64,000 nucleotides of DNA from Bacteroidota bacterium (lineage in GTDB: Bacteria; Bacteroidota; Bacteroidia; Chitinophagales; Chitinophagaceae): positions 34,378-98,377 of the forward strand of contig JAFDYG010000444.1 in assembly GCA_018267545.1 (NCBI GenBank), in the 5' to 3' direction. Below the pieces are notes generated by a model that saw only the letters and a list, made by a program, of their open reading frames with translations, was not told the origin of the DNA and ran no database searches. This document shows positions 5,051-30,380 of this stretch, piece by piece. Position 1 is the first letter of the stretch; each line of letters begins with the position of its first letter. Position numbers and translations under genes: made by a program.

Positions 5051-6292
5051 TCAAACCGAAGGCGGACCCGTCGAACCCACCAGCCTCCTCCTCACACCCG
5101 AACCACCCGCATATAGATCCACATTCCCCGGCGTAACCACCCAAACCCGCTTCCTCGCCTTCCGCCGGAAAAGCAATATCGCCCGCACCCACGCCACCCA
5201 TTCCATACTTAATTTGATAAAAGGAAAAAGAAAGCTCACCTTCACCACCATCCGCCTGATCTCCCGATACTCCATCCGCGCCCCCAACAACCCCGTCATC
5301 GGCCAAAAGATCCCAGCCACCACCGCGCCCCCCAGCAAAAAAATCCCCGCCCTCCAGCTAATCCAAAACACAATCGCCACAAGCACCGGTCCCGCCAAAA
5401 CCCCCGCGACAAAAATCATATCGAATAAAGTAAGCACCCCCATCCGCGTCAACGAAGAAACCTGCCGACCATACCACTCCCGCTCTCTACTAAAGGTCTC
5501 CAGGTACCCCAGGTTCCACCGGACCCTCTGCCGCAGCAACGCCCGATACGTCAGCGGAGGCCGCGTAAGCGCCTGCACCTTCGGCAGATAATGTGTACGA
5601 TACCCGTTTTTAATACCCAGCACCGTCGTCTCCCGATCCTCGCCGTTGCGAAGCCCGCTATGCTCATTGAACAGCTGCACCAGTATTTCCCGTTTGTAGC
5701 ACGAGCCCGCACCAGGCATCACCCGCACGCTTTGGTCTTTCCGGTGCCACCGGTACAGCCCCCTTAAAAAAGTATATTCCAGCTGCTGAAACAAAAAGAT
5801 CGGCCCCTCACCTTCGAACGGCAACATCCGGAAGTAGCCCCCCATCACCGAAGGGTCACGCATAAGCGGCAGATAACGACGCAGCTCCTCGAGACCATAG
5901 AGGTCGGTATCGAAATCCGAAGTGACCACCCATTCATGAGAAATATTGAGCGCCGTAGCAAATAAGGCCCCCACCTTCCTGGCATTGGGAAAGATCGCAG
6001 CCAGCAGCAGCGGAGACTTTCTTTCTGCGACAAAATGCTGTATCGAACCCAAACTCCCGTCACTCGACCCATCGTCGATCAAAATCAGGTCCAGCCAGTC
6101 CCGATACTTCCGGGCCATCGAATCGTAATAATAGAGCCGGTCAAGGATATTACAATGCGTCTTCTCGTTATACAAAGGGACCAGCAACGCGACCCTTTTC
6201 TCCAAGGCAACCCTTTTCTCCAACACGACCCCTTTCTCCGAATCCGCAGGACGATGAATCCAGGTTAGCGTTCTTGCAATGCTGTTTTTCAT
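5051..6292 (-). CDS. Processive-type GT2 glycosyltransferase with C-terminal membrane segments
   Basis: Start chosen at 6292, where ATG overlaps the TGA of the upstream gene (ATGA); the longer open frame would overlap that gene by over 100 bases. The product is 413 residues. The GT-A domain begins with VALLVPLYNE, has LILIDDGSSDGS for nucleotide binding, a DFDTD (DxD) metal site, a GEDRE acid motif and QRVRW, the QxxRW motif of processive GT2 enzymes such as hyaluronan, chitin or cellulose synthases. Two or more hydrophobic helices follow (LTLFDMIFVAGVLAGPVLVA and AGIFLLGGAVVAGIFWPMTG). It is the last gene before the terminator. In context it may add sugar to the peptide product or a lipid carrier; the acceptor is unknown. 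Confidence 0.85.
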   Translation of the reverse strand: MKNSIARTLTWIHRPADSEKGVVLEKRVALEKRVALLVPLYNEKTHCNILDRLYYYDSMARKYRDWLDLILIDDGSSDGSLGSIQHFVAERKSPLLLAAIFPNARKVGALFATALNISHEWVVTSDFDTDLYGLEELRRYLPLMRDPSVMGGYFRMLPFEGEGPIFLFQQLEYTFLRGLYRWHRKDQSVRVMPGAGSCYKREILVQLFNEHSGLRNGEDRETTVLGIKNGYRTHYLPKVQALTRPPLTYRALLRQRVRWNLGYLETFSREREWYGRQVSSLTRMGVLTLFDMIFVAGVLAGPVLVAIVFWISWRAGIFLLGGAVVAGIFWPMTGLLGARMEYREIRRMVVKVSFLFPFIKLSMEWVAWVRAILLFRRKARKRVWVVTPGNVDLYAGGSGVRRRLVGSTGPPSV

Positions 6293-7704
6293 GCTCCGTA
6301 TTTTTTGTAATCGAGAGCCATCTCCCTCAGCTCGGCCCGGAAATACGCTGCCAGCTTCTCCACATCCGCAGGACCATGCATCCGTTCCTTGTACGTCCAC
6401 ATAAACGTCAACCCGTTGACAAATTCTTTGATATTACAAGCCAGCGCATAAAAGGACGTATTATGCCGGGCATGCCCCACACTCACTTCCGGCAGCGTTT
6501 CCGAAGGATCACGAGAAGGCTCGAAGTTGACAAAGCAATTGCAGCTCATCCGCAACGCCGCCCCATCCAGGCTGAAGTCGTCATGGTTGAAGATCAAATG
6601 ACGGCAGGCCTTCATAAAGGCCGAGCTGATCGCCGCCAGACATTCTTCCGCCGTCGCCCCCACACCCATCGACCCACCCCCCATTGACCCACCCCCCATC
6701 GACCCAACACCCATCACCCCAACCCCCATCACCCCAACACCCGTCGCCCCCACACCCATTGACCCACCCCCCATCTCTAGCGGCAGATAGATTCCCGCAG
6801 TCAGATTCCCGATCAGGTCTTTATACTTCGGATGAAATCTATCCGCCACCGGCGAAGCAAATAAAACCGAATCGACCCCAAAACACTTTTGATAAGCCCT
6901 GTACAAACCCAGGTAAAGAACATTCCTCAGGCTGACCCTCCGATGACGCGCAAAGTCCCGCAGCTCGTCTACAAGCGGCGCCCCGATCGCCATATTATAA
7001 CAGCTCGCCGGCGACGTACTGAGCCTCTTCAACAGCTGACCATACGTCTCCGAAACACCTCCCGCAATGGCCGCCTTCGAAAGAATCCCATTCCACATCC
7101 GCTCCGCATACCCCGGGACAAAAGGCTTTAGCTGCTGCTGCCAATAAAGCCGATGCCGCTCCGTCTCCCCGTTCACCTCCCGGCAATAATTGGTGATTCT
7201 CGGCGCCGGCGACAGCTCATCCCGCAGAGAACCCTCGTAATACCCCTTCAGCTCCTGGCGAATAACCCACACCGACCACGCATCGCTGATAATATGATGA
7301 ATGATAAAAGTCACCTTGTACCTTCCGTCAGGCATTTTTACCGCATAGACCCGGAACAAAGGCCCCCGTTTCAAATCGCACACGACCGCCAGGTTGTCGA
7401 AGAACAGCCTCCGTTCCATCTCTTCCCCCCCGACCTCCGTAACCCTCACCCGAAACAACCCCCTATCCACCGGATGCAGCACCAGCCAAACCTTCTCCTC
7501 CACCAACGGAAAATGCGCCCTCAAGCTCTCATGCCGTCCCACCAGCCACATCACCGCCTCTTCCAATAGATCTACATCGAGCGCATCGAGCTCCCAGCTC
7601 TCGAAAAGAAACTCTTTCTCCGTCAGCTTGGTAAAATAGCTGTCCGATTCCCAGTCCTGCCGCTGGCGGGGACTGGGCTCATAATAACAAGTAGTTTGTC
7701 CCAT
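6289..7704 (-). CDS. Stand-alone condensation-domain protein (NRPS C-domain-like)
   Basis: The 471-residue protein has HHIISDAWS at residues 136-144, the HHxxxDG active-site motif of NRPS condensation domains with Ala in place of the final Gly. The N-terminal PSPRQRQDW and downstream layout also fit that superfamily, which includes acyltransferases such as PapA. No adenylation or carrier domain is fused. C domains join an acyl or aminoacyl group on a carrier protein to an amine or hydroxyl acceptor, so the acyl carrier protein at 18862 in the same operon is a natural partner. A 15-base tandem repeat encoding MGxG[A/S/V] units interrupts the C-terminal half. The gene ends in an ATGA overlap with the GT2 gene and starts 3 bases after DUF4254. 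Confidence 0.8.
   Translation of the reverse strand: MGQTTCYYEPSPRQRQDWESDSYFTKLTEKEFLFESWELDALDVDLLEEAVMWLVGRHESLRAHFPLVEEKVWLVLHPVDRGLFRVRVTEVGGEEMERRLFFDNLAVVCDLKRGPLFRVYAVKMPDGRYKVTFIIHHIISDAWSVWVIRQELKGYYEGSLRDELSPAPRITNYCREVNGETERHRLYWQQQLKPFVPGYAERMWNGILSKAAIAGGVSETYGQLLKRLSTSPASCYNMAIGAPLVDELRDFARHRRVSLRNVLYLGLYRAYQKCFGVDSVLFASPVADRFHPKYKDLIGNLTAGIYLPLEMGGGSMGVGATGVGVMGVGVMGVGSMGGGSMGGGSMGVGATAEECLAAISSAFMKACRHLIFNHDDFSLDGAALRMSCNCFVNFEPSRDPSETLPEVSVGHARHNTSFYALACNIKEFVNGLTFMWTYKERMHGPADVEKLAAYFRAELREMALDYKKYGA
6656..6775 (-). repeat. 15-bp tandem repeat, 8 units, inside the condensation-domain gene
   Basis: Eight consecutive 15-base units of the type GACCCACCCCCCATC (plus strand) with small differences. 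Read on the coding strand they give a Met/Val/Gly-rich pentapeptide repeat (MGGGS, MGVGA and similar). The length is a multiple of three, so the frame is kept. It probably forms a flexible loop and would vary in copy number by slippage. Confidence 0.9.
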
Positions 7705-7707
7705 ATG

Positions 7708-8322
7708 CTATAGTTGAGCTTCACGTTGACCGTACAGCACCGGATTTAGCTCCGGATCATTGTACATTTTGACTTGTCGGTAGGTTTTGATCTTTTTGAC
7801 GCCGGCGGCGAGATCATCGTCCAGCCAGTCGATCGACTGAAGCAGATCGTCCAGTTGACGGCACAGCAGCGCCCGCCGTGAAACACAAGCAGCGCGATGA
7901 CCCTCCGACGCCGAATGCCTCCTCAGCTCCGCTTCGATATGATAGATCTTCAACGAAAGAATCGACAGCCGGTCGATGGCCCAGCCGATGCTCTCCGTAT
8001 TATGCCTGGCCCCGCTTTGCACCGGCCGGTCCCGGTACATCGACACGAAATAATCGTCGATCTCCTCCACGCAATCCGTCCTTCGCTGGTTGAGCTCGTC
8101 AATCCGCCGCTTGATCCCTAATGCTTCGCATGGATCGATCCCCGGATCCCGGATAAGATCTTCCAAATGCCATTGAACCGTGTCTATCTCACATTTGCGG
8201 AACAGCTTTTCCTCGAACGACCCCTCGGAGTAAGGACACGACAGCCGTTGATTCACATCGTCGACGAGATGATATAGGCGAACGCAGGCGGTAAAAACAT
8301 CGTAGTAGCTTGCAGCTTTCAT
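7708..8322 (-). CDS. DUF4254 family protein
   Basis: Start taken at 8322, giving MKAASYYDVFTACVRLYHL, in an ATGA overlap with the stop of the GT9-like gene; the longer frame to 8415 would run deep into that gene. The 204-residue helical protein carries the hallmarks of DUF4254 as I recall them: an IDELNQRRTDCVEEID helix, WAIDRLSILSLKIYHIE, and the C-terminal YRQVKMYNDPELNPVLY. The family often sits next to GT9 (heptosyltransferase-like) genes, and here it directly follows a GT9-like gene, which supports the call. The biochemical function is not known; a partner role in glycosylation is an inference from that pairing. Confidence 0.82.
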   Translation of the reverse strand: MKAASYYDVFTACVRLYHLVDDVNQRLSCPYSEGSFEEKLFRKCEIDTVQWHLEDLIRDPGIDPCEALGIKRRIDELNQRRTDCVEEIDDYFVSMYRDRPVQSGARHNTESIGWAIDRLSILSLKIYHIEAELRRHSASEGHRAACVSRRALLCRQLDDLLQSIDWLDDDLAAGVKKIKTYRQVKMYNDPELNPVLYGQREAQL

Positions 8323-10019
8323 ATGATTTGTTTGATGAAGTCGGTCAATAGCGGAACGGTAAATTCGGAAACCGGCAAAGTCACACGCCTGTACTCCTCC
8401 GTCGCCGTCGGACACTGTCCCAGCTTTCGAATCGACTTTTCACCGTTTTCGCCTTTCGAGATAATGGCGCACTTTACCAGGCTGCCAATCCACCAGTGGC
8501 TGGCATTGTAGTCCGGATTCAGATCGTTGAGCCTCCCGGTGTAAACCATGAGCAGCGGCAGCTCCGTCTTTGTAAGATGGCCGTGATTCAGCAGGTAGGT
8601 ATAGATGCTGTTGGCAAGGTGCAGCATGCCCGTACAGGGTCCGATTACCGACCTGACATAGCTGCTTCCCAGCAGACACATGTCTTTGCGAAGCCCCAGA
8701 GAAGTCGCCACGATAATTCGCCCGGCAAACGCTTCCCCATACAGTTCCACCAGCCTGCCCGCTTTGCCGCTTCCCATCTCATCATACAGCAGAATTTTCA
8801 TCTCAGGATCCCCCAGCAGCCACCCCATCAATCCCAAAAACACATCGGCCGCCAGCAGCTTATTATCGGTCGACGCCCCTTCGATAAGAATAGCAACCTT
8901 CTCCCCCGGCCGGACACCCTGCTCTTCCAGCCAGCGGTCTGCCCATCCACGCTCGTCTTCACCCAGAATGATCTCCTTGTCGGCAAGCGCCAGCCCATAC
9001 TGCCGCACATGTACCCGCTCCCTGGGGACAACAGACTTCGCCAGAAGACGATAGTTCCATTGATAGGGATCGCCCACGTTCCTGGCATCCATCATATGAT
9101 CATAGTGATACACCATAGTCCCCGGGAGCCCGTCCGGATAATACCGCTCCAGGTGACACAACAGCTTCAAGATCGAATCCGGATGACAGAGGACAAGATC
9201 ATAGCTTCCGAAATCTATTCCTCCCCATGCCGTACACGTGAATTCAGTATTCGGGCCAAAGGATCCCCGGAACATCTCGGCCAGCCTCCCATAGACCTTT
9301 TCATTGTCGCAATTGATCCTGCACCGCGCATCCGTGCTGATCTTATGCAGCGTCCTCTTGGTATTGTATAAAAACCAGAAACAGGCATCGCCAAGAAAAA
9401 ACTTGCGGTAATGGTCGTCGAGAACCAAAATACTTCGAATAGCCCTTCCCGCTAACCCGCTATTGACACGCCTGATCTCCTCCAGGACCCGCGGGTAAGC
9501 AGCCTGCTGCCTGTCCCGATCCAAACCCAGAAAATGCGGCCAAAGCTCACGGCCCCTGTCGCGGATATAATCGAAATCCCCATCAGGAAGCCGGCTTATC
9601 AATTCATACACCGAAGGAAAGATGCCCTTGCTTCCCCTTTCATCGATCCGAAACACCGCCGGCGCAGCCCGCCCAATCCAATCCCTCACCCGCCCCTCCA
9701 TCCAATCCCGCAAGCGAACCTCCATCCACGGCTGACAAAGAACAATTTGATACGCCCCCCAATCGATTCCCTCCGGCTCCATCCTCGTAACACAAGCCTG
9801 CAATTCACCGCCCCCCGCTCCCCAGAGCCCGCCATAATCGATACCGCTCCGGTCATTGATCGCAATCGATGCATCGGGATATAGCTGCTGCAATACCCAA
9901 TAGATATTGTATAGCGACTTCAGATGCTTTTCCTGCAGATGATTCCAGTGAATAAGATCGTACAGGTCGCTAAGAATTAAAATGCTGTTTACATGACGGG
10001 CGCAGGTCGGACGATTCAT
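8319..10019 (-). CDS. GT9-like (heptosyltransferase-like) protein with duplicated N-terminal module
   Basis: The 566-residue protein ends with a GT-B nucleotide-sugar half: EKVAILIEGASTDNKLL, then the IGPCTGMLHLANS motif, which matches the GxDTGxxHLA signature of GT9 enzymes with Cys replacing Asp. The first 300 residues contain two related modules: one at about 12-115 starting NSILILSDLYDLI and ending IDWGAYQIVLCQP, and one at about 195-300 starting RSILVLDDHYRKF and ending IDFGSYDLVLCHP. Each looks like a Rossmann-type half. The protein is longer than ordinary heptosyltransferases. It overlaps DUF4254 by ATGA and follows the HlyD gene by 6 bases. It probably glycosylates a cluster product, but activity is uncertain because the Asp is missing. 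Confidence 0.7.
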   Translation of the reverse strand: MNRPTCARHVNSILILSDLYDLIHWNHLQEKHLKSLYNIYWVLQQLYPDASIAINDRSGIDYGGLWGAGGGELQACVTRMEPEGIDWGAYQIVLCQPWMEVRLRDWMEGRVRDWIGRAAPAVFRIDERGSKGIFPSVYELISRLPDGDFDYIRDRGRELWPHFLGLDRDRQQAAYPRVLEEIRRVNSGLAGRAIRSILVLDDHYRKFFLGDACFWFLYNTKRTLHKISTDARCRINCDNEKVYGRLAEMFRGSFGPNTEFTCTAWGGIDFGSYDLVLCHPDSILKLLCHLERYYPDGLPGTMVYHYDHMMDARNVGDPYQWNYRLLAKSVVPRERVHVRQYGLALADKEIILGEDERGWADRWLEEQGVRPGEKVAILIEGASTDNKLLAADVFLGLMGWLLGDPEMKILLYDEMGSGKAGRLVELYGEAFAGRIIVATSLGLRKDMCLLGSSYVRSVIGPCTGMLHLANSIYTYLLNHGHLTKTELPLLMVYTGRLNDLNPDYNASHWWIGSLVKCAIISKGENGEKSIRKLGQCPTATEEYRRVTLPVSEFTVPLLTDFIKQII

Positions 10020-10025
10020 GCCGGA

Positions 10026-10772
10026 TTATTTTATGGTTGCGTGATTGGAATTGTCGTTAGGCAGCACATTTCCGAAAATGCGTTGAAGCAGGTTCTTGTC
10101 CGTAAGAATAACCTCCGCAGACCCCTGGTTGAATCGCTGCAGCAGAAGCTCCTTGCCTTCCGTAGTAACCATCCCGTCCGTGAGCTTCACCTCCGCACGC
10201 ATACCGCCTTCATACCCCATCGGGATCAGAGAAGATATCCGCCCCCGCAACCTGCCATACTCCGCCTCGGGAAAAGCGTCCATCGCAATCAGCACCGTCT
10301 GCCCATTGCGCACATTGCCCAGCCCCTTGGCCGGTAGATCTACATATATATCGTAGGAAGAATCCGGAGGCTCGATCATCAGGATCGACCGCTGCGGATT
10401 GTCTATCGTACCATGGGTCAGCAGAATTTTTCCGTCCAACGGGCTAACCTGCGTATTCAGGGCGCTGTCCGCAAGGTTGAGCTCGCTTAGAAGCGTATCC
10501 CCCACATGCACCATCTGGTTCTGCCGGACGAAGAGCTTATGGACCTGCGGACCGTTCCGATACCAGCTGATCTTATACGGCTGACTCCTGCTGGCCACGA
10601 TCACCCGGCTGGTCAGAACATCCGGGAACCGGATGATCAACGCGCAAACGACAAGAATAGAAAGGAGAAAAAACAGCAGCAGAACGCCCCAGCGCACGAT
10701 CCACGGAGGAATAATCCCAATGATGAACTGGGTGTCTTGATGTTGATTGTATTGATGAGCGGCGATTGGCAT
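10026..10772 (-). CDS. HlyD-family membrane fusion protein (short hairpin)
   Basis: The 248-residue protein has one N-terminal membrane helix (WGVLLLFFLLSILVVCALII), then a beta-barrel/lipoyl-type region with typical HlyD phrases: VRQNQMVHVGDTLL, SPLDGKILL and VRNGQTVLIAMDAFPEAEYG followed by RGRISSL. The long coiled-coil hairpin of HlyD/TolC-coupled adaptors is nearly absent, so the protein is shorter than the family norm. It lies 35 bases downstream of the C39 ABC transporter and would connect it to the outer envelope for peptide export. No TolC-like gene is present in the window. Confidence 0.85.
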   Translation of the reverse strand: MPIAAHQYNQHQDTQFIIGIIPPWIVRWGVLLLFFLLSILVVCALIIRFPDVLTSRVIVASRSQPYKISWYRNGPQVHKLFVRQNQMVHVGDTLLSELNLADSALNTQVSPLDGKILLTHGTIDNPQRSILMIEPPDSSYDIYVDLPAKGLGNVRNGQTVLIAMDAFPEAEYGRLRGRISSLIPMGYEGGMRAEVKLTDGMVTTEGKELLLQRFNQGSAEVILTDKNLLQRIFGNVLPNDNSNHATIK

Positions 10773-10807
10773 ATGGGATATTTTAGGCAGTCGGCTTTCA
10801 GCCCCAG

Positions 10808-13078
10808 TTAGGCGGCTTCCAGCTCCAGCTGGTTTTTGACGAGCTCATAATAATCGCCCCTGAGAGCGATCAGCTCCTGGTGAGTACCCGTTTCCTTGAT
10901 CCGGCCGTTTTCCAGCACGATGATCTGGTCCGCATTCTTGACCGTGCTGAGCCGGTGGGCGATGACGACCGTAGTTTTCGACTGCAGGAAAAGGTCCAGG
11001 TTCCGCAGGATCGTCCGTTCGTTGTTGGCGTCGAGCGCGCTCGTAGCCTCGTCGAAGAAAATATAATGCGGATTCCTGTATACGGTGCGGGCGATGAAAA
11101 TCCGCTGTTTCTGCCCCCCGCTCAACCCGGCGCCCGTGCTGCCGATCTTGGTATTGAGCCCCAGGGGCATTTTTTTAAGCACGTCCTGCAGATTGGAAAT
11201 GCGGATGGCTTCCATCAATCTTTTTTCGTCGATATTGTCTCCATCCACGGCAATGTTTCGCAGGATCGTGTCGGAAAATATATATCCGTCCTGCATCACC
11301 GTTCCACAGCTTTTCCGCCAGTAGGTATGGCTGAAATTCTGCAAATCTGCGCAGTCCACGCTAATGCTCCCGGACGATGGCTCGTAAATTTTCAGCAGGA
11401 GCTTGAGCAGCGTCGTCTTCCCGCTGCCGCTCGAACCGACGATCGCCGTCGTCTTGCCTTCGGGAATATAAAGGTTGATATTGTCCAGGACCAGCGGCGA
11501 CTTCGAGCTGCCGTATCGGAAGGAGACATTGTTGAACCGGATGCCCTTTTCCTGTTCCTTGACCAGGTCACGCGTACAATGATTTAATAGCTCGCCATAA
11601 TAGCCCGCATTTCCCGGCGAAGCATCTTCATTCAGCTCCTCATCGCTGCGGGCATGAATCTCGCTGAGCCGGTTCAGGCTCATCTTCGCATCCTGCATGC
11701 TCCGTATAAAGGAGATCAGCTGGCTGAGCGGCGCATTCATTTGTCCCACCATATAAGAGATGCTCAGCATGATCCCCAGCGTCATCGAGTTATGAATGAC
11801 CGCAGACGCCGCCACATAGGAGATCAAAATATTTTTCAGCTGCGTGACGAAAGACGCCCCGACGGTCTGGTACTGCTCGAGCGCAAGCCCTTTTATATTG
11901 ACCCGAAACAGCTTGGCCTGTATCCGCTCCCATTCCCACCGCCTGGACCGCTCGCAATTGTTCAGCTTGATTTCCTGCATGCCCGTAATAAGCTCATAAA
12001 TCGTATTTTGATTTTCCCGCATCTGCTGGAAACGCATATAGTCGATGTTCTTCCTACCCTTGAGGAACAGCAGCACCCAGGATACCGAGATCAGGCTCCC
12101 CGCGATAAAAATTGAAAAAATCACCCCATTATATAACCACAAAATCGCCGAGAAGACCAGCAGGTTGATCAGCGAAAACATCGTATCCAGCGTAGACCCC
12201 GTCAAAAACGATTCGATCCGGTGGTGGTCATTGATCCGCTGCGTCAGGTCCCCCACATTCTTGCTCTCGAAAAAGCTGAGCGGCAGCTTCATGATCTTGA
12301 TAAGAAAATTGGAGATCATGTTCACACTCACCCTGGTATTGATATGCAGCAATATCCAGTTTCGCAGAATATCGACAAACGTACCCCCCAGAAACAGCAG
12401 GAGCTGGGAAACAAGAATCAGGTGGATAAAATGAAAATTATGTTTATGGATGCCATAATCCACGACGCTTTGCGTCATAAAGGGAAAAATCAGAGAAAGT
12501 AAGCTGCCAAAGACCATCGCCAGCAGCACCTGTACGATATATCTCTTATAAGGACGCAGATAGGTGAATAGGAAACGGTAGCTGCTCTTCTCCGCCCCCC
12601 TTTCTTCCTCCTTTTCATAAAAGGATGGAGTCGGCTCCGCCAGTAAGGCAATCCCCTTCGAATCACCCGACTGCAGCCAGCATTTTTTAAAGGTTTCTTC
12701 ATCGATGACCACGAGGTCGTGACCCGGGTCCGCCACCACCAGCCGAACCGGGGGTTTCTTATACAGGAACCCGAAACGGCTGTTCCTTACCGCATACAAA
12801 ACGACAAAGTGCTGTTGGTTCCAATGCAGTATGCACGGCAACGGAGCCTCGGTAGTAAGCTGCTCATACGTCAGCTTCACCGACAACGTCTTCATGCCGA
12901 TCTTTTCGGCAGCCTCGCTCATGCCGAGAAAATTCACCCCCGACCGGGTAATATAGGAGTGCGAGCGTAGATAGTCCAGCGAATAGTCCTTGCCATAGCA
13001 GGCCGCAACCATTTTGAGACAGGTCGGCCCGCAGTCCATGTAGTCCAATTGCCGGAAGAACGGATATTTATGCTTCAT
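10808..13078 (-). CDS. Peptidase C39-containing ABC transporter (PCAT)
   Basis: The 756-residue protein combines an N-terminal C39 peptidase, six membrane helices and an ATPase. The peptidase has Cys16 in YMDCGPTC, His90 in WNQQHFVVLY and Asp117 in VADPGHD, a complete triad. The ATPase has GSSGSGKTT (Walker A), LSGGQKQR (signature) and FFDEATSALD (Walker B). PCATs cut leader peptides after a Gly-Gly motif while exporting the core. The precursor at 14306-14506, two genes upstream, ends its leader in KIRGG and is the best substrate. The start overlaps the end of the radical SAM gene by 11 bases, so translation is probably coupled. Confidence 0.94.
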   Translation of the reverse strand: MKHKYPFFRQLDYMDCGPTCLKMVAACYGKDYSLDYLRSHSYITRSGVNFLGMSEAAEKIGMKTLSVKLTYEQLTTEAPLPCILHWNQQHFVVLYAVRNSRFGFLYKKPPVRLVVADPGHDLVVIDEETFKKCWLQSGDSKGIALLAEPTPSFYEKEEERGAEKSSYRFLFTYLRPYKRYIVQVLLAMVFGSLLSLIFPFMTQSVVDYGIHKHNFHFIHLILVSQLLLFLGGTFVDILRNWILLHINTRVSVNMISNFLIKIMKLPLSFFESKNVGDLTQRINDHHRIESFLTGSTLDTMFSLINLLVFSAILWLYNGVIFSIFIAGSLISVSWVLLFLKGRKNIDYMRFQQMRENQNTIYELITGMQEIKLNNCERSRRWEWERIQAKLFRVNIKGLALEQYQTVGASFVTQLKNILISYVAASAVIHNSMTLGIMLSISYMVGQMNAPLSQLISFIRSMQDAKMSLNRLSEIHARSDEELNEDASPGNAGYYGELLNHCTRDLVKEQEKGIRFNNVSFRYGSSKSPLVLDNINLYIPEGKTTAIVGSSGSGKTTLLKLLLKIYEPSSGSISVDCADLQNFSHTYWRKSCGTVMQDGYIFSDTILRNIAVDGDNIDEKRLMEAIRISNLQDVLKKMPLGLNTKIGSTGAGLSGGQKQRIFIARTVYRNPHYIFFDEATSALDANNERTILRNLDLFLQSKTTVVIAHRLSTVKNADQIIVLENGRIKETGTHQELIALRGDYYELVKNQLELEAA

Positions 13079-14309: not shown

Positions 14310-14506
14310 TTGCTTCCGCCCTCCGGACCCTGGCTGCCTCCGGGACCACCGACTCCGCCGCCGCCATACTCGATAAACCCGCCTCGAATCTTGTCATTGT
14401 CTTCATCATCCAGGTGAAAATTCTTGTCCTTCAGCGCGTCCAAACCTTTTTTCTTGTCTTTTTTGCCTTTTGGCGTAAGCGATGGTTTTTTCTTCTTCTT
14501 TTTCAT
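14306..14506 (-). CDS. Candidate RiPP precursor with Lys-rich leader and Gly-rich core
   Basis: A 66-residue peptide. Residues 1-28 are extremely Lys-rich, residues 29-41 are acidic (HLDDEDNDKI) and end in the Gly42-Gly43 motif KIRGG expected for a C39 peptidase. The remaining core is FIEYGGGGVGGPGGSQGPEG plus a short GSK tail: two aromatic residues, then glycine repeats. Its stop codon overlaps the start of the radical SAM/SPASM gene, and the C39 transporter is next in line, so leader, modifier and exporter are adjacent. No Cys is present, which argues against thioether chemistry and for aromatic crosslinking. The start is the only ATG after a short AT-rich leader. Confidence 0.75.
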   Translation of the reverse strand: MKKKKKKPSLTPKGKKDKKKGLDALKDKNFHLDDEDNDKIRGGFIEYGGGGVGGPGGSQGPEGGSK

Positions 14507-23884: not shown

Positions 23885-23920
23885 GGAAGGGATATTTTAA
23901 TGAGTGCTGAAAAGAGAGGA

Positions 23921-23947
23921 TAACAGGCAGGCGACACCTGCCTGTTA
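23921..23947 (-). terminator. Intercistronic hairpin between precursor and radical SAM gene
   Basis: A perfect 11-bp inverted repeat (TAACAGGCAGG and its complement) closes on a 5-base loop. No T-run follows on the minus strand, so it is more likely a partial terminator or an RNA-stabilising stem than a full stop. It would let the precursor mRNA exceed that of the enzymes downstream, a usual arrangement in peptide operons. Confidence 0.7.
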
Positions 23948-23958
23948 TCGATTGAGAT

Positions 23959-24135
23959 TTACACCAGGATGTCATTGTCTGAACCAGTGTCGCCGGCGGG
24001 ACGGCTGAGACCGTAAGTGCCGCAGGAGAAGCCGTCGCAGAGCGATTCTACTTCCTTGGAAAGACGTTCTTCAGTGGTATTGGGTTTTACCAATGCCTTC
24101 TTCTCCAACGCTTCTTTCAGTTGTTGCTTGTTCAT
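23959..24135 (-). CDS. RiPP precursor peptide, copy 1 (58 aa, Cys33/Cys38)
   Basis: Found by reading the gap between two genes. The peptide begins MNKQQLKEALEKKALVK, a helical charged leader, and ends with core SLCDGFSCGTYGLSRPAGD followed by an acidic tail ending DILV. It differs from the copy at 26032-26208 by one residue, Ser37 here and Thr37 there. Key core residues are Cys33, Cys38, Tyr41 and Arg45. There is no Gly-Gly site, so the leader is probably removed by another protease, for example the subtilase. Arg45 in GLSRPAGD is a candidate substrate for the UPF0489 arginase in the operon. A radical SAM/SPASM enzyme follows at once. Confidence 0.88.
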   Translation of the reverse strand: MNKQQLKEALEKKALVKPNTTEERLSKEVESLCDGFSCGTYGLSRPAGDTGSDNDILV

Positions 24136-24174: not shown

Positions 24175-26016
24175 CTATTTCGAAATAGCAGTAGTTAACA
24201 CCTTGTCACGGTAGGGCTGCAGGTCGTCTACCTGCTCCAGCACTACCCTGAAATCGGGTGCGATACCCTTCTCTTCGATGGAACGGCCCCCTAGCAGAAA
24301 CCTGCCGGTGTCGAGACAGTTCGTGGCGATCACGACGTTGTCCTTGGGAAGGTTGATCTCGTAGATAAAGGCCAGCGCCCCACGGGTGGACTCCCTCCCC
24401 ACAACGACCACGTTGTTCCGCTGCGCGCGAAGCGTATAGACCAGCAGCTCCGCAATACAGGCAGTGGCTTCGTCGACCAGCAGGACCACCTTCCCATCGG
24501 ACCGGTAGTGGAACGGCGTTTCGTTCGCCTTGATGACCACCGAATCGATCTTGCCCGTTCGGACATCCTCATAATCGAAATAATGATAGCTGCGGCCGAT
24601 CAGGTAGGAAAGAAACTGCGCTCCGGCAAGGAAATCACCTCCGCCGTTTCCCCGGAGGTCCAGGATCAGCTTTTTTCGGGTATTGACGGAATCCAGTCTC
24701 GACGCGAAGTCCAGCGGAAGTTCCATATTGATCTTGCCTATCCTGTAGTAGCAGATCGAATCACCGATGAATTTCATGTCGAGATTGCCGGGACTGAATG
24801 TCGCGGGGATTTTGTATCTATCTTTTACCTGCCAGGCAAGGTCTTCGACCCGCCCGTCGGGATGTCTCACGGTGATATTGACCCTTTCGCCGGGAAGCCT
24901 TCTCAGCAGTCCATTTATATCACGGGCCCTGGCAGTGTCCAGGACCTTCCCGTCGACGGCAAGCAGCTCCGTACCCAGGGATACCCTGCTCTTCAGGCTG
25001 TCGTCGAAGATGCCGGCAATACGGTAGCGGCCTTTCAGATAATAGGTGTACAGCGGTGTTCGCAGAGCTTTCCTGTTGTCGCAGGCGCCCCGGATGGAGA
25101 AATGCGGGTCGTGCAGCGACGCCCAGAGAAATGTATTGATCGAGTCGATAAAGGGGCAGAGGGGAAGGTTTTGGTTCCTGTGCAGGAAGGCCGAAGCGCT
25201 TCGCAGAATACTGTCCTTGCTGACCTTCCTGGTCGCATAGAAAGGATAGTGATCGAGCAGCGACGGAAGTATCCCCGACAACAGCTGGTTGCTCGTTTGC
25301 GTAGTGTCCTGGATAAAGATGGAGCCCTTGAAATTTTCTTCCTTCTGATCTGCGGGGAAATAGGCGCACTCGCCATACGAGTCGAAAGGCGACCATTGCC
25401 ACGAAGTCTGACGCGCCGCATTGGCGAAAGGCGCGTGGACAAAAATATCCGAAGGAGACAGCCGGTCCGCAATATGTTCCTCCCCAATCCAAAGATCCCC
25501 GATAACCAGCGTAAACGGACGGCTGCTGTCGCTCAGCGAATAGCTGATTCTCAGGGCCGCCGGGTCGCCCAGCCACGGCAGAAGCTTTTCGGCCTTTAGA
25601 AAGGCCGGTATCTGGTACCCATCTTTGCTGACGGAAATCTCCAGTGGCTTTTTCTCTTCACCACCGGTACCCGCCCCGGCGAATCTGACCTTGCTGATAT
25701 TACGCGTATACAGCCGGATAAAGAGAGCGGTTTCCGAAGTCGGAACGCCGCTGAATTTCCCAGACAACGCAATTAATCCGGGCGCCTTGATCGCATAGCC
25801 TTTCTTCAGCGGGCCGAATTCCTCGGCATGCGGAAAGAAAAAGGCGGTTTCCTGGGAGCCGTCGCCCGCAATGGTAAAGGCTTTTTTCACTTCCCTCACC
25901 TTGTATAAGGCCAGGGGTTGAGCCTGCATGCGGGAGACGGCCAGGAAGAGCGTCAGCGATATCAGGCATCCCACGCGCGTAGCGCGAAAAGAATAAGATA
26001 AAGCAGATTGTCTCAT
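24175..26016 (-). CDS. S41 (C-terminal processing) peptidase-like protein with altered catalytic residues
   Basis: The 613-residue protein starts with a signal peptide (hydrophobic GCLISLTLFLAVSRMQAQ). After an N-terminal beta-rich part and a PDZ-like part (RVSLGTELLAVDGKVLD), the S41 domain has LILDLRGNGGGDFLAG, and then ATACIAELLVYTLR where the family normally has the nucleophile Ser in TASASE. The aligned residue is Cys520. The general-base Lys expected 25 residues later is Arg545 in STRGALAF. The spacing of 25 equals that of Ser/Lys in E. coli Prc. The protein may therefore be a Cys variant or a catalytically dead binding protein. It lies between the two twin precursor genes. Confidence 0.86.
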   Translation of the reverse strand: MRQSALSYSFRATRVGCLISLTLFLAVSRMQAQPLALYKVREVKKAFTIAGDGSQETAFFFPHAEEFGPLKKGYAIKAPGLIALSGKFSGVPTSETALFIRLYTRNISKVRFAGAGTGGEEKKPLEISVSKDGYQIPAFLKAEKLLPWLGDPAALRISYSLSDSSRPFTLVIGDLWIGEEHIADRLSPSDIFVHAPFANAARQTSWQWSPFDSYGECAYFPADQKEENFKGSIFIQDTTQTSNQLLSGILPSLLDHYPFYATRKVSKDSILRSASAFLHRNQNLPLCPFIDSINTFLWASLHDPHFSIRGACDNRKALRTPLYTYYLKGRYRIAGIFDDSLKSRVSLGTELLAVDGKVLDTARARDINGLLRRLPGERVNITVRHPDGRVEDLAWQVKDRYKIPATFSPGNLDMKFIGDSICYYRIGKINMELPLDFASRLDSVNTRKKLILDLRGNGGGDFLAGAQFLSYLIGRSYHYFDYEDVRTGKIDSVVIKANETPFHYRSDGKVVLLVDEATACIAELLVYTLRAQRNNVVVVGRESTRGALAFIYEINLPKDNVVIATNCLDTGRFLLGGRSIEEKGIAPDFRVVLEQVDDLQPYRDKVLTTAISK

Positions 26017-26031: not shown

Positions 26032-26208
26032 TTATACCAGGATGTCGTTATCGCTGCCCGTGTCGCCGGCAGGACGGCTCAGGCCATAGGTACCGCAGGT
26101 AAATCCATCGCAGAGAGACTCCACTTCTTTGGAAAGGCGCTCCTCAGTGGTATTGGGCTTAACCAATGCCTTCTTTTCAAGCGCTTCTTTCAGCTGTTGC
26201 TTGTTCAT
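26032..26208 (-). CDS. RiPP precursor peptide, copy 2 (58 aa, Cys33/Cys38)
   Basis: Second copy of the 58-residue precursor; same leader and same core, with Thr37 instead of Ser37 (GFTCGTYGLSRPAGD). Synonymous third-base changes are scattered along the gene, so selection seems to have kept the protein while the DNA drifted. Stop at 26032 is 15 bases before the S41 start, and start at 26208 is 11 bases after the arginase gene. Two copies around one secreted S41-like protein suggest a duplicated cassette and a product made as a pair of variants. Confidence 0.88.
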   Translation of the reverse strand: MNKQQLKEALEKKALVKPNTTEERLSKEVESLCDGFTCGTYGLSRPAGDTGSDNDILV

Positions 26209-26219: not shown

Positions 26220-27137
26220 TTAATGGTTAAAAAAGATATTCTCGGACGGCGCCCTGCTGCCGCGCAGCAGAGAACCGATATGACTGATGCGGGCGGGATA
26301 TAGACAGCAAAGAGCAGAAAGCAAATGCGCCTCTATAAAATCCCATTGATGCCGGGGCGTAAATCCGCTATGACGGCTGCGGCAGATCGTAATCACGGCC
26401 GGCTGTATCGACCGGTTCGCCAGATCGTTGACCAGCTTTTTGATGCGCAGCACTATTTCCGCTTCCGTCACCTCGCGCCTGCTGGGATAGGTTTCCCCGA
26501 TCCTGTTGAGGACATAGAAGTATGACCCGTTCCAGGTTTGCACCTCGGCATGCGCCGTGATGAAATGCAGATAATGGTAGGGATTGGTATTGAATTCTTC
26601 GTATTCCTGCTGCGTAATCTCGATCACGATTTCATTGGAGATGTACGGGTTCTCACAGCAGGAGAAATAGTCGAGGTCGATATCCAGCAGAAATGACCCC
26701 CCGGCCGGCAGCTCCAAATCATTGAACCCCTCAGGTCCGGTCTTGACCTGCGTAAACGGCCGGCTCCCCGCCGTACCCGCCGCCGCCGGCAGAAAATACT
26801 TGCCCTCATTGTTGAACGTCCGGACCGCCATCGGCTGAACCTGCGTTTTTTCGACCCCCTGCCGCACCCAGCAATACTGCCCCACTAAACCAGAATAAAT
26901 CGCCGGCACGATAAAGCTGTCGATATGCAGCTCTTTCCTTACGAAATGCTCGAGAAAACGATCCCCCTCTTCCCGTAGCCTGTAAATGCTGCTATTCAGC
27001 GCAGGATAACGCATATCTGCATGATCATCGAAATGCAGCAGGCAGCTGCCTGCGTCGATCAGGCCGTTTTGCCTCGCCTTCGACCAGACGTAAAAGGCCT
27101 CGTTGTGCTCTTCGATGATATGAATATCGGGGATCAT
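26220..27137 (-). CDS. UPF0489-family peptide arginase-like enzyme
   Basis: Start chosen at 27137 (MIPDIHIIEEHNEAF), 7 bases after the ABC exporter stop; the longer start at 27164 would overlap it. The 305-residue protein has LLHFDDHADM (residues 33-42), matching the DxHxD metal site of arginases, and LLDIDLDYFS, the second metal site. ICRSRHSGFTP follows. UPF0489 includes OspR-type enzymes, known to turn Arg side chains in RiPP precursors into ornithine. Arg45 in both nearby precursors is a natural target. The 74-residue peptide at 28922 also has three Arg residues near its C-terminus. Confidence 0.82.
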   Translation of the reverse strand: MIPDIHIIEEHNEAFYVWSKARQNGLIDAGSCLLHFDDHADMRYPALNSSIYRLREEGDRFLEHFVRKELHIDSFIVPAIYSGLVGQYCWVRQGVEKTQVQPMAVRTFNNEGKYFLPAAAGTAGSRPFTQVKTGPEGFNDLELPAGGSFLLDIDLDYFSCCENPYISNEIVIEITQQEYEEFNTNPYHYLHFITAHAEVQTWNGSYFYVLNRIGETYPSRREVTEAEIVLRIKKLVNDLANRSIQPAVITICRSRHSGFTPRHQWDFIEAHLLSALCCLYPARISHIGSLLRGSRAPSENIFFNH

Positions 27138-27144
27138 GGTATTA

Positions 27145-28893
27145 TTATGCGATGGCCGAAACACTCTGATAGGTGCTTTCCATCTGGTTCTCGAATAGCC
27201 TTACATAATATTCGCAATTGGCCGCCAGCCAGTCATGAGAGCCCTTCGCGATGATATGGCCCTTGTCCAGGACGATGATCTCGTCGGCCTGCCTTACGGC
27301 GCTGATGCGGTGGCTGATAATGATGCTGATCTTGTCCCGGTACATATCTTTTACGAACCGGATGATCTTTTCCTCGCTCTGCGAGTCGAGCGCCGAGGTC
27401 GCCTCGTCCAGGATGACGATCTCCGATTTTTTCAGGAAAGCCCTGGCAAGCGCCACCCGCTGCGCCTGACCGCCGGAAAGCGTAGCGCCCCGGTCTCCGA
27501 TCATCGTTCCATCACCGGCTTCCATGTTCGCAATAATATCCCGTATGCCGACCTGCCGCAGGATAGGCTCGATGTCCTCCGGCCCTTCATACCGGTTGTT
27601 GTACACGATATTCTCCCGGATAGTATCGTGAAGGATATAGCTGTGCTGCTGAACGACCGTGATATACTCCATCCATTCGCTGATGCTCATTTCATTCACC
27701 GGGTTGTCGTTGTACAGGATCGACCCCTCCGAATGCTTGTAAAATTTGGTCAGAATAGAAATGAGCGTGGATTTACCGCAGCCGCTGGCGCCTACCAGCG
27801 CATAGGAACGCCCCTTGACGAATTGCAGGTCGACGCCATTCAGAATCTTCTTTTTCTCATAGCTGAAGTGGAGACCGTGAATCAGGACCCGTTCGACCGG
27901 TTCGATGACTTTGGAGCCCGGCTGTACCCAGCGTTCCGTCCGGGCATCGAAAATCGCCTTTATCTGCTTCATGGAAACACCGGCCCTGATCAATTCGTCG
28001 TGCAGGTAGAACATGTCCATGCTGGGACTGTAAAGCCGGTTGATGTATTGCAGGAAGGCGACCAGCGCACCCAGGGTCATGCTTCCGTCGAGCACCTTCG
28101 AGCCTCCCCAGCCGAAGATCAGCACCGGACCCATCGCGATGAAGAAGGAGGCGATGTTTCGGTTCAGCGAAGAGTAAATCGTATTTTTCAGCTTCGCGTG
28201 ACGGATATTTTCAATCCTTCCATTCAGCTTCTCGTTTTCGTAGTCATAGCTGTTGAAAGACTTGATTAAACGTATGCAGTTGAATCGCTCGGTATAGAAA
28301 TTGTTGGTCTCACCCTCTTTTTCACTCACCTTCTCGTACGATTTACGGATCAGGGGTGTAAAGTATCGAAGGGTAACAAAGATAAACGGAAATACGACCA
28401 GCGACACGAGAAACAGGCTGAGATTGAGCCAGGCCAGCAGGAAAGCAAGACCGACCAGCAGGACCACGTTGTTGCACAGGCGGATAACGCTTCTGGTAAG
28501 CGTGCCTTCGATGATGTTGACCTCGTTGTTGATCTTGTGCACGATCTCGCCTACCTTGTTCTTGTCGTAGAAGGCCAGGGACATATGGAGCAGATGGCTG
28601 AACAGGTCGCGGCGAATATCGCCGACTACCTTGCTGCTCAGCCAGGAAAATAGATAGTCGAAGAAATAGGTAGCGAGAATCCTGACGACATACAGGACGA
28701 TCAACGTCGACAGCAGCTTCATCAGCAGATGATAGTCCTTGTGCGGGAATACATCGTCGATAATGAGCTTCAGGATGTAGGGAGAGGCGAGAGAACCCAG
28801 GCTGCTGACTGCTATCAATAGGAAAAGCAGCAATTCTTTGTCCCAGTATTTTTTGATATACCGGGCGAACCACAGGTATACATGGCTGCGCAT
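27145..28893 (-). CDS. ABC exporter without peptidase domain
   Basis: A 582-residue half transporter: six membrane helices (two obvious near residues 23-70) fused to an ATPase with GASGCGKST (Walker A), TLSGGQAQR (signature), VILDEATSALD (Walker B) and IISHR. No C39 domain is present, so it cannot cut a leader itself. With the PCAT at 10808 the operon carries two exporters. This one lies with the arginase and the twin precursors and may export their product, or a lipid or glycolipid intermediate. Confidence 0.9.
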   Translation of the reverse strand: MRSHVYLWFARYIKKYWDKELLLFLLIAVSSLGSLASPYILKLIIDDVFPHKDYHLLMKLLSTLIVLYVVRILATYFFDYLFSWLSSKVVGDIRRDLFSHLLHMSLAFYDKNKVGEIVHKINNEVNIIEGTLTRSVIRLCNNVVLLVGLAFLLAWLNLSLFLVSLVVFPFIFVTLRYFTPLIRKSYEKVSEKEGETNNFYTERFNCIRLIKSFNSYDYENEKLNGRIENIRHAKLKNTIYSSLNRNIASFFIAMGPVLIFGWGGSKVLDGSMTLGALVAFLQYINRLYSPSMDMFYLHDELIRAGVSMKQIKAIFDARTERWVQPGSKVIEPVERVLIHGLHFSYEKKKILNGVDLQFVKGRSYALVGASGCGKSTLISILTKFYKHSEGSILYNDNPVNEMSISEWMEYITVVQQHSYILHDTIRENIVYNNRYEGPEDIEPILRQVGIRDIIANMEAGDGTMIGDRGATLSGGQAQRVALARAFLKKSEIVILDEATSALDSQSEEKIIRFVKDMYRDKISIIISHRISAVRQADEIIVLDKGHIIAKGSHDWLAANCEYYVRLFENQMESTYQSVSAIA

Positions 28894-28921: not shown

Positions 28922-29146
28922 TTACGGCAGCATGTCGAGCTCGGAGTTGATGCCGCGGTGCGTGAGTCGGGGAGTCAGGTCCACGAAATCCGGCGAACGG
29001 CCTTCGAGAACTCCTCCCAGGATCAGCTCGTCGTTCTCGATGAGACTGTCGTCTCCTTCCTTCTGAATATTTTCCTTGTACTGGTCGAGGGATACCTTTG
29101 GCTTCTTTTTATTGTTGAAACCGAGGATCTGAGATAGTTTTTTCAT
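28922..29146 (-). CDS. Small protein, possible further precursor (74 aa)
   Basis: A 74-residue protein starting MKKLSQILGFNNKKKPKVSL, then an acidic Gln/Asp/Glu-rich helix and LILGGVLEGRSPDFVDLTPR, ending DMLP. It has a possible Gly-Gly site at 44-45 and Arg50, Arg60 and Arg64 in the tail, no Cys. The start resembles Bacteroidota natural-product leaders (MKKL...). It lies just upstream of the exporter gene. It could be a precursor acted on by the arginase or a small helper protein; the sequence alone does not decide. Confidence 0.55.
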   Translation of the reverse strand: MKKLSQILGFNNKKKPKVSLDQYKENIQKEGDDSLIENDELILGGVLEGRSPDFVDLTPRLTHRGINSELDMLP

Positions 29147-29184: not shown

Positions 29185-29475
29185 CTATTCCTGTATGCGG
29201 AGGTTCCTTATCTTTTCCTCCTTGTTGAAGGTGACCCTGTATTCACAGTGTGAGATCCTTTTTTCGAAATTCAGCCGGAAGCTGAAATAGTTGAACTTGT
29301 TGAGCTCGGTCCATATCTTTTTTTCGACTTCGGTATCGGTGGGGGTCAGGAAAAAAACGGCCGTTCTCAGACTCGTTAATTGATTTTCAAAAGGAAGCGA
29401 CCATTCGGTGACCAGGCCGTTGGACCGCATGTTTTCGAGTAGTTTTTTGACTTCGTTGATCTCTTTGACGAACAT
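29185..29475 (-). CDS. Hypothetical protein, 96 aa
   Basis: A 96-residue charged protein with no signal peptide or membrane helix and no motif that I recognise. It begins MFVKEINEVKKLLENMRSNG (helix), then beta-rich residues 40-90 (VFFLTPTDTEVEKKIW, FSFRLNFEKR). The size would suit a RiPP recognition element or adaptor, but I see no direct proof. It is the first gene after UpxY, separated by a 173-base stretch, and 38 bases before the 74-residue peptide. Confidence 0.6.
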   Translation of the reverse strand: MFVKEINEVKKLLENMRSNGLVTEWSLPFENQLTSLRTAVFFLTPTDTEVEKKIWTELNKFNYFSFRLNFEKRISHCEYRVTFNKEEKIRNLRIQE

Positions 29476-29502
29476 GGGGGATTGAATTTTTGCTGCCTGT
29501 CT

Positions 29503-29591
29503 TTCCGGCCTGCCGCCTGTCTTTCCGGGCAGAGCTTCGCTGCTTCAACTCACAGGCCATTTCTCCGACCCATGGGCTTCCGGCCTGCCGC
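29503..29591. repeat. 14-bp direct repeat in the UpxY 3' gap
   Basis: TTCCGGCCTGCCGC occurs at 29503-29516 and again at 29578-29591, inside the 173-base gene-free stretch between the UpxY stop (29649) and the next gene (29475). Partial GCCTGTCTTTCCGG copies lie beside the first. This is the longest gap in the operon and has no ORF that I can support. It may form RNA structure used in processive antitermination or mRNA processing. Confidence 0.6.
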
Positions 29592-29648
29592 AGAGTTGCC
29601 GGTGGCAGGTATGGTAAAATATGATTCTACGGGTTTTTGCTTTCGGGA

Positions 29649-30161
29649 TCAATTCATTCTTAGCAGATCATCCATGGAAATATCTACGGAGATCGCCTGC
29701 TTCAACAGGGGAAGTCGAATTAGAAAACGGGACCGGTGGTTGACTTGCCGTATTAGGATACCCTCCAGTCCCTCGAATACCCCTTTTTTGACGATAACAT
29801 GGTCCCCGGCGAGATAGAAGCCTTCGACCTGAATATTTTTTCCATTCTCTTCGATCAGCTTTATCCGGTCGATTTCCTGGAACGGTATTGTTTCCGGCTT
29901 GCCGTCGGAACAGACAAAACGGATGACACCCTGGATTTGCAGCAATTCCGCTTTATTGCAAAGGTTCGTTCGGACAAAGATGTATCCGGCAAACAGGGGC
30001 TCTCTGACTTTTTTCATGCGGTCACTCCATTGATGGACCACATTTCGCATGGGTAGGTAACACTCGTGGTTCATCAACCCGATCTCGGCCTGGATCTTCC
30101 TTTCAAAGCGAGGCCTGGTATACAAGGCGTACCATTGATTATTTTGCGTTTCCCTGCTCAT
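29649..30161 (-). CDS. UpxY-family transcription antiterminator (NusG paralogue)
   Basis: The 170-residue protein has the NusG N-terminal domain (QWYALYTRPRFERKI, then EPLFAGYIFVR) and a C-terminal KOW region (GDHVIVKKGVFEGLEGILI). Bacteroidota UpxY proteins are encoded at the start of capsule and other long operons and suppress early termination of that operon. Here it is the second gene, 27 bases after the Thr-rich peptide, and about 25 kb of co-directed genes follow. I infer that it acts in cis on this transcript. Confidence 0.92.
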   Translation of the reverse strand: MSRETQNNQWYALYTRPRFERKIQAEIGLMNHECYLPMRNVVHQWSDRMKKVREPLFAGYIFVRTNLCNKAELLQIQGVIRFVCSDGKPETIPFQEIDRIKLIEENGKNIQVEGFYLAGDHVIVKKGVFEGLEGILIRQVNHRSRFLIRLPLLKQAISVDISMDDLLRMN

Positions 30162-30188
30162 GGCGAATGGTTGTTAGGGTGGGTATGA

Positions 30189-30380
30189 TCAATTCCGGGG
30201 CCTTTGCGCAAACGCACCGACGGTCACGAAAGAGGTGCCGGTGACGGGAAGGGTCGTCGTCATAGTGGACGTAATGGTCGTCGTGTCTCCCGTTTCGCCG
30301 GACCGGCTTGCAGCACTGTGCTGGTAAAGAAACAGGGTCCTGGTCTTGAGCATAAGCGGTGTTTTGGTGGAGTGATTCAT
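30189..30380 (-). CDS. Candidate Thr-rich RiPP precursor (63 aa), first gene of the operon
   Basis: A 63-residue peptide. Residues 1-20 (MNHSTKTPLMLKTRTLFLYQ) look like a leader with an aromatic/Leu patch. Residues 27-56 are very rich in Thr and Ser (GDTTTITSTMTTTLPVTGTS) and there is no Cys. Such a core could be dehydrated by a LanB enzyme to dehydrobutyrine and dehydroalanine without thioether rings; the full-length LanB at 34135-37239 is close by. The gene reads out of the repeated promoter element at 30404-30490, shared with LytS, and UpxY follows 27 bases later. Another frame (30139-30420) is also open over this region, so the call needs proof. Confidence 0.65.
   Translation of the reverse strand: MNHSTKTPLMLKTRTLFLYQHSAASRSGETGDTTTITSTMTTTLPVTGTSFVTVGAFAQRPRN

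Follow-up and report, generated by a model that had tools for sequence, protein, structure and literature searches.

The locus and its FlmA-type genes

The stretch of DNA analysed here (hereafter the window; 64,000 nucleotides of contig JAFDYG010000444.1, from a Bacteroidota genome of the family Chitinophagaceae) carries on its minus strand, from position 30380 to 5051, a run of 25 tightly spaced open reading frames (ORFs), one of which (threonine-rich) is doubtful as a gene (Table 1). Judged by its gene content, the upper half of this putative operon is a biosynthetic cluster for a ribosomally synthesized and post-translationally modified peptide (RiPP) of the DD(I/V)LF (FlmA) family, a kind already known since 2025. 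New here is that a cysteine occupies the nucleophile position in every copy of the S41 peptidase tied to this cluster type. The single-direction run of about 25 genes foreseen by an earlier, sequence-only reading of the window (the original prediction) was borne out, as were its longest gap of 173 bases (29476-29648) and the strong terminator at its end; a seeming gap of 264 bases ahead of the TonB-type gene is filled by the gene for an acyl carrier protein (ACP)-like protein.

Table 1. Features of the gene run, ordered from its upstream to its downstream end (window positions; scores are profile matches; the last column counts the clusters with a homologue among the 26 relatives compared)
Feature	Position	Strand	Evidence	Relatives
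Thr-rich ORF, doubtful gene	30189-30380	-	ORF call	
UpxY family antiterminator (NusG paralogue)	29649-30161	-	NF033644 126.2 bits, cut-off 100; PF02357	8
96-aa protein, no assigned family	29185-29475	-	NCBIfam and Pfam scans without match	0
74-aa peptide, double-glycine-like leader end (ELILGG, by eye), Arg in C-terminal part	28922-29146	-	no family match	0
ABC exporter without C39 domain	27145-28893	-	PF00664, PF00005	25
UPF0489 peptide arginase	26220-27164	-	PF12640 55 bits, cut-off 27; motifs EEHNEAF, DDHAD, LDIDLDYFSC	17
FlmA-family precursor A1	26032-26208	-	one residue and 31/177 bases different from A2	
S41-fold peptidase, Cys520 at nucleophile position, invariant His305, signal-like N-terminus (by eye)	24175-26016	-	PF03572 59.9 bits, cut-off 24	24
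FlmA-family precursor A2	23959-24135	-	NF052472 53.2 bits, cut-off 30	
Radical SAM/SPASM maturase, FlmE/OhkG family	22433-23884	-	NF052473 715.5 bits, cut-off 500; adjoins precursor	
Subtilase (S8, QhpE-like) fused to TIGR04066/DUF1611 P-loop domain	20531-22429	-	PF00082 and PF07755 over cut-off	24, plus one S8-JmjC fusion
JmjC/cupin_8 hydroxylase	19668-20525	-	PF02373 49.7 bits, cut-off 24	21
FlmC family 2-oxoglutarate-Fe(II) oxygenase	19127-19711	-	NF052475 281.4 bits, cut-off 240	13
ACP-like carrier protein, 86 aa, S-E-S motif	18862-19122	-	family profile against PDB	18
TonB-type outer-membrane barrel	16454-18862	-	PF14905 E 1.2e-85	15
4-Cys (CxxC..CGGY..CP) and TPR-like helical protein	14888-16447	-	Cys invariant in 6/6 aligned; model pLDDT 75.4	5
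Small putative lipoprotein (by eye)	14529-14891	-	sequence	3
Gly-rich double-glycine precursor (..NDKIRGG/FIEYGGGG..)	14306-14506	-	sequence	0
FxsB-like radical SAM/SPASM enzyme	13068-14309	-	TIGR04269 339.2 bits, below cut-off 370	0
C39 peptidase-ABC exporter	10808-13078	-	PF03412, PF00664, PF00005	1 (C39 peptidase)
HlyD family adaptor	10026-10772	-	PF13437 26.4 bits, cut-off 22.2	0
GT9-like protein	8319-10019	-	no Pfam match; NCBIfam heptosyltransferase E 0.021	13
DUF4254 protein, start probably near 8319	7708-8415	-	PF14063 166 bits	2
Standalone condensation domain (C-domain), HHIISD motif	6289-7704	-	PF00668 E 8.3e-25	9
GT2 glycosyltransferase, start probably near 6292	5051-6400	-	PF13632 38.5 bits, cut-off 27	0
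Intrinsic terminator hairpin with T run, strong, ends unit	~4994-5021	-	fold of 4931-5060	

Most of the families that had been named for the run (two radical S-adenosylmethionine (rSAM) enzymes, UPF0489, JmjC- and FlmC-type oxygenases, the S8-DUF1611 fusion, the condensation domain, GT2 and two ABC exporters) are matched by profiles and the proposed ACP was recovered, while the GT9-like assignment finds but a weak heptosyltransferase match; the DUF4254, S41, TonB-type, HlyD, TPR/4-Cys and lipoprotein genes come on top of that list. The remark that the combination was unfamiliar is superseded, as the flm (Flagellimonas meridianipacifica) and ohk (Ohtaekwangia koreensis) clusters, with this precursor type and an arginase, were published in 2025 (PMC12703449), and the NCBIfam models carry Flm/Ohk names (by which we judge them to go with that paper). 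That paper reports 30 arginases with 57 'DD(I/V)LF' precursors, demonstrates experimentally the conversion of Arg to Orn by FlmR and OhkR, and leaves core borders, cleavage sites and the fate of the tail open.

The twin precursors A1 and A2 appear to be maintained by selection, and not to be recent copies, because their 31 base differences yield a single amino-acid change (S37/T37); the NF052472 scan covered A2, from which A1 differs in that residue only. Both are composed of a leader with an LVKP-type motif, a core holding a single Arg and two Cys (exactly two in 45 of the 49 precursors collected), and NDILV as the hydrophobic tail, which departs from DD(I/V)LF at the first D, as do flm precursors such as EENDILF; among the 49, a terminal V was observed solely in these two. 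The subtilase fusion stays under the NCBIfam cut-offs (NF049966 102 bits, cut-off 165; TIGR04066 71.9 bits, cut-off 200), and its D7, H49 and S195 are invariant in 14/14 aligned sequences. Elsewhere in the family, a subtilase is directly fused to JmjC (L065:17681-19222 in G804, 514 aa), and in an otherwise full cluster (L058, G203) the subtilase-DUF1611 gene is split into three pieces and perhaps decaying. In the flm locus, an ORF for an AraC-type regulator (HTH_18; L043:18061-19065, Flagellimonas) has a C-terminal end resembling an FlmA precursor (..PKELKKPS..FLCREYQGGPHCRVNSESGINEDILF) and reads like a regulator-precursor fusion or a fourth precursor.

Relatives were collected through the rSAM protein: a genome scan gave 14 loci (12 used; the remote L022 and L023 left out), and FlmE over cut-off was found in 1/33 genomes of the window's genus (its own), 6/173 of the genus of Chryseobacterium antibioticum, 4/145 of the genus of Pedobacter cryoconitis, 7/79 of the genus of Chitinophaga hostae, 1/397 of a Flagellimonas family sample (Flagellimonas itself) and 1/395 of a phylum sample (its own). 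The 26 clusters compared with the window include, in all counts, three with rSAM scores under cut-off (G255, G823 and G852), other such matches from the group searches being left out, and recurrence denotes a best BLAST hit located no more than 22 kb from the rSAM gene, with E < 1e-4 as the threshold and a stricter one for TonB, C39 and FxsB. The recurrence of a core set in these 26 other clusters takes the gene set of the operon beyond chance.

The flm and ohk clusters share with the window the FlmA-type precursors, FlmE/OhkG, arginase, S41 peptidase with Cys, subtilase, JmjC, ABC exporter and ACP-like gene; the window differs by a single core Arg (two in flm/ohk), by the V that ends its tail, and by the addition of the TonB-type barrel, GT9-like, DUF4254 and GT2 genes and an FxsB-like double-glycine module. 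A cluster from the genus of Chitinophaga hostae (G834) has in similar order UpxY, ABC exporter, arginase, Cys-bearing S41, twin precursors, rSAM, S8-DUF1611, JmjC, FlmC, ACP, TonB-type, TPR/4-Cys and C-domain genes; a methyltransferase stands in place of the FxsB-like module, and homologues of GT9, DUF4254 and GT2 were not found in it.

Cysteine-bearing S41 peptidases, precursor tails and core arginines

The window's S41 enzyme retains the catalytic domain of its class (by profile and fold), with the serine nucleophile replaced by Cys520. Across the 25 cluster copies (window and 24 homologues) this position is invariably Cys, within a T-A-C-x-x-E motif (T replaced by S in two), and the D-x-H histidine is equally invariant. 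The comparison set came from the 81 S41 matches that lie outside the clusters in five of the genomes; of these, 70 were examined and 11 left out, and Ser was found in 63/63 that could be aligned at the position (the other 7 did not align). Three more non-cluster S41s lying inside the loci have Ser as well. The AlphaFold2 model (mean pLDDT 87.3, with 95-96 in the segments flanking the Cys) matches C-terminal processing proteases, the top hit reaching at best a TM-score of 0.53 on the target, and the Cys aligns to Ser300 of Helicobacter pylori CtpA, a residue that has been changed to Ala in structure 9ku3 (S300A). With these proteases and with nisin resistance protein (NSR; T-A-S-S-A-E, dyad Ser236-His98, PMC4698656) the enzyme has in common the catalytic-domain fold, a T-A-[S/C]-x-x-E motif and the conserved His; they use Ser, whereas the window enzyme has Cys and belongs to a RiPP cluster. 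Judged by motif and conservation, His305 may be the counterpart of NSR His98, and a Cys-His pair would then operate in the window enzyme. Searches of the open-licence literature (supplements excluded) gave nothing on a Cys-nucleophile S41 or on S41 in RiPP pathways, and neither the Cys-bearing S41 nor an arginase-free branch of the family was found described there or in the accessible part of PMC12703449.

The enzyme is probably periplasmic, since the N-termini resemble signal peptides by eye, and its gene lies at most 400 bases from a precursor in the window and in 17 of the 24 relatives that carry it. In the 25 clusters that have an S41, each of the 46 precursors carries [DE][IV]L[FVI] at its end; the two clusters that lack S41 have three precursors, with SLLF or ELIF as their last residues. 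For Chost, Gemma, Pedo255w, Chit823w and Chit852w the precursors were picked from a full list of small ORFs, with no C-terminal filter. Since the tail is also kept where the genome yields no arginase match (9 clusters), service to the arginase cannot be its only role. The Cys-bearing S41 is the leading candidate for cutting at this conserved tail, or for transpeptidation there.

The three arginase family motifs, EEH(N/H)EAF, DXHXD and LDIDLDYFSC, are all found in the window's UPF0489 translation, and whole-genome searches recovered arginases in 18/27 genomes. With the core taken as everything from the first Cys on, a core Arg is present in all 32 precursors of the 18 arginase-bearing clusters and in 1/17 precursors of the 9 arginase-free ones (8/9 of these clusters have none). 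G203, considered as another case of core Arg without arginase, was rejected once an arginase was found in it. Among the arginase-free clusters of the Chryseobacterium group, three (G060, G061 and G151) carry Lys at the aligned position together with FlmC, and two (G123 and G186) are without core Arg, core Lys and FlmC. FlmC may act on Orn/Lys, as these five clusters would suggest, but it is also absent from arginase-bearing ohk-type clusters and from G819. The arginase state changes three times on the rSAM tree (at least two of the changes forced by well-supported branches); the pattern agrees with the core Arg being the arginase target and, because so few changes are independent, falls short of statistical proof. 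In the window peptide the core Arg would probably be converted to ornithine.

Further modules and the transcription unit

Downstream of the FlmA-type genes, the Gly-rich peptide, FxsB-like rSAM, C39-ABC exporter and HlyD adaptor look like a standard double-glycine RiPP set (the likeness to the FxsB cyclophane maturase concerns the putative mode of working only, as the TIGR04269 cut-off is not reached). Homologues of this rSAM at E < 1e-70 were present in 5/394 genomes sampled from the family to which the window belongs, one of the five being its own, and in 4/5 loci (four other genomes) a double-glycine peptide, the rSAM and a C39-ABC exporter follow one another in that order. By BLAST, no homologue of the FxsB-like rSAM, Gly-rich precursor, HlyD, GT2, 74-aa or 96-aa genes was found in the 26 relatives, an absence that is weak in several loci because they extend only ~10 kb to one or both sides. 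We read the module as what looks like a separate RiPP pathway nested in the operon because it was found in none of the FlmA-type relatives and because its order of peptide, rSAM and C39-ABC exporter recurs in 4/5 of the FxsB-homologue loci.

With homologues of six genes found in none of the 26 relatives, at least two RiPP systems probably share one putative transcription unit, and the earlier inference of one regulated pathway is doubtful. The association of RiPP genes with carrier, C-domain and glycosyltransferase-like genes is supported, as these parts recur in relatives. We lean, with some reserve, towards two RiPP pathways in the unit, one FlmA-type and one double-glycine/FxsB-like, plus a further double-glycine peptide (74 aa), the absence of the module's genes (with those for the 74-aa and 96-aa products) from the relatives and the gene order of the four other loci both favouring it. 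The reserve stems from the TPR/4-Cys and lipoprotein genes, which adjoin the module and occur in FlmA-type relatives too, from one Pedobacter cluster in which a stand-alone C39 peptidase sits beside a third FlmA-type precursor, and from the fact that BLAST can miss short peptides. In Pedobacter cryoconitis (L031/L032), a second gene set downstream comprises a stand-alone C39 peptidase, a third FlmA-type precursor, a second homologue of the C-domain and a protein that by eye is UGT-like.

The ACP-like protein scores 17.7 bits with PF00550 on its own, under the cut-off of 20.8. A family profile (17 of 19 members aligned, two left out) matched 55 PDB sequences at E <=0.05, nearly all named carrier proteins; at the top stand 2jq4, which is labelled hypothetical, and 4h2w, an aminoacyl carrier protein, with E near 9e-5. 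The usual D-S is replaced by S-E-S, whose serine is present in 12/17 members. The carrier and C-domain may acylate the peptide or a sugar; a literature search on C-domains with carriers in RiPPs yielded nothing usable. The fold search with the TPR/4-Cys protein returned TPR-type matches, none at E < 0.001.

At the upstream end, the UpxY antiterminator proposed as one of the first two genes stood the test of its profile, and the accompanying Thr-rich peptide gene was not confirmed: its ORF gave no match in NCBIfam and Pfam scans, and in the 8 relatives carrying UpxY the 400 bases ahead of that gene showed no Thr-rich ORF (30-99 aa), leaving a Thr attenuator at the operon start unproven. An Rfam scan of 4500-31000 was without match. 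On the minus strand of 4901-30700 no Bacteroidota-type promoter (TTG/TTTG + TAnnTTTG) was found, and the -7 motif alone occurs 3 times (5.84 expected from mononucleotide shuffles). A sigma-70-type scan of both strands of 4000-18000 found 15 sites against 10.6 expected (sd 3.1), so internal promoters may exist. Between precursor A2 and the rSAM gene (23885-23958), a GC-rich stem-loop of 14 pairs (-24 kcal/mol) precedes a T-rich stretch and could reduce expression of the genes downstream of the precursors. Immediately upstream of the operon, in divergent orientation, is a histidine kinase (30489-31604; PF06580, LytS type), and adjoining the cluster is a protein (31620-32948) whose two halves look alike by eye and whose GT25 match stays under cut-off.

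A proposed pathway and its alternatives

Gene identities, Cys/His conservation and the Arg-arginase pattern are observed directly, and from them we infer the chemical steps (that of the window's arginase included) and their order. UpxY would keep the polymerase running through the long operon. In the cytoplasm the FlmE-type rSAM would probably make a Cys-based cross-link, the UPF0489 enzyme would convert the core Arg to Orn, the two oxygenases (JmjC and FlmC) would hydroxylate the peptide, and the subtilase may remove the leader. The model for this last step is the QhpDEF maturation of quinohemoprotein amine dehydrogenase, in which an rSAM enzyme, the QhpE subtilase and an ABC exporter are combined; the window shares these three (its subtilase as QhpE-like, under cut-off) and differs in fusing the subtilase to a P-loop domain and in having many more tailoring genes. 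The ABC exporter would pass the peptide to the periplasm, where the S41 enzyme, with Cys-His replacing Ser-His, may cut at or just before the tail or hand over an acyl group through a thioester. The carrier protein, C-domain and glycosyltransferase-like proteins would probably add acyl or sugar groups, and the FxsB-like rSAM, C39 exporter and HlyD would serve the separate double-glycine RiPP of the operon's second half. As a whole, the explanation that the operon makes an FlmA-family RiPP with Arg-to-Orn conversion, oxygenation, leader removal and tail processing by the Cys-bearing S41 seems to us reasonably probable.

Several observations weigh against it. The tail statistic is partly circular, because many precursors were retrieved by their C-terminal pattern; some control S41s aligned at low scores only; the S41 gene lies 2.8-8.9 kb from the precursors in 7/24 relatives; two clusters have no Cys-bearing S41 in the stretch examined; and the activity of the enzyme is putative, being predicted from homology. 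The window arginase scores 310.5 bits with NF052474 (FlmR/OhkR), under the cut-off of 350 (as do in all 6 of the 18 arginases found), Chit852w has a core Arg and no arginase, and the Arg-arginase pattern amounts to two to three independent changes, not significant with kinship counted. Moreover, the carrier serine is missing in 5/17 ACP-like proteins (all ohk-type), and HHxxxD (the pattern used here) in 6/12 of the listed C-domain homologues, one of these six being a 95-residue partial match.

The tail may alternatively be a recognition element for a maturase (e.g. the rSAM), or stay in the product, with the S41 acting elsewhere. Models in PMC12703449 do place the tail in contact with the arginase, and replacing it slowed OhkR; FlmR was unaffected by the same replacement, and the persistence of the tail in arginase-free clusters speaks against this role too, so that we find it doubtful. 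The Cys-bearing S41 could also be a self-protection enzyme or binding protein that acts on the finished peptide in the periplasm, by cleaving or sequestering it in the manner of NSR, an S41 enzyme with a matching motif that cuts a RiPP near its C-terminus (PMC4698656), and the signal-like N-termini fit such a role. We consider this unlikely in view of the retention of the gene in 24/26 relatives, its closeness to the precursors in most of them, and a tail conserved as a processing signal would be (itself a partly circular argument).

More daring is the reading of the enzyme as a new RiPP cyclase or transpeptidase, whose Cys would attack the bond before [DE][IV]L[FVI], form a thioester, and join the new C-terminus to an upstream amine (the N-terminus freed by the subtilase, or an Orn/Lys side chain), giving a macrocycle. 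The chemistry would be that of AgrB, whose Cys nucleophile removes the C-terminal tail of AgrD with formation of a thiolactone (PMC10885120); AgrB is an integral membrane protease of another family, with an unrelated fold. If true, the arginase would unmask the nucleophile, and Lys would substitute for Orn in the three arginase-free clusters that have it. The two Chryseobacterium-group clusters with neither residue argue against its generality, as the N-terminus would have to serve there, and we hold the cyclase to be unlikely. A further arginase-bearing RiPP, biphenomycin, loses both leader and follower (PMC12707348), there through one TldD-type metalloprotease, and with MNIO and B12-rSAM chemistry unlike that of the window.

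A cluster-specific Cys-bearing S41 enzyme makes tail removal in DD(I/V)LF RiPPs directly testable. Furthermore, this enzyme together with the rSAM would serve as a marker that extends the family to arginase-free clusters, which arginase-based mining would miss, and the exchange of Ser for Cys in all S41 copies tied to one peptide family may be of relevance to the protease and peptide-ligase field.

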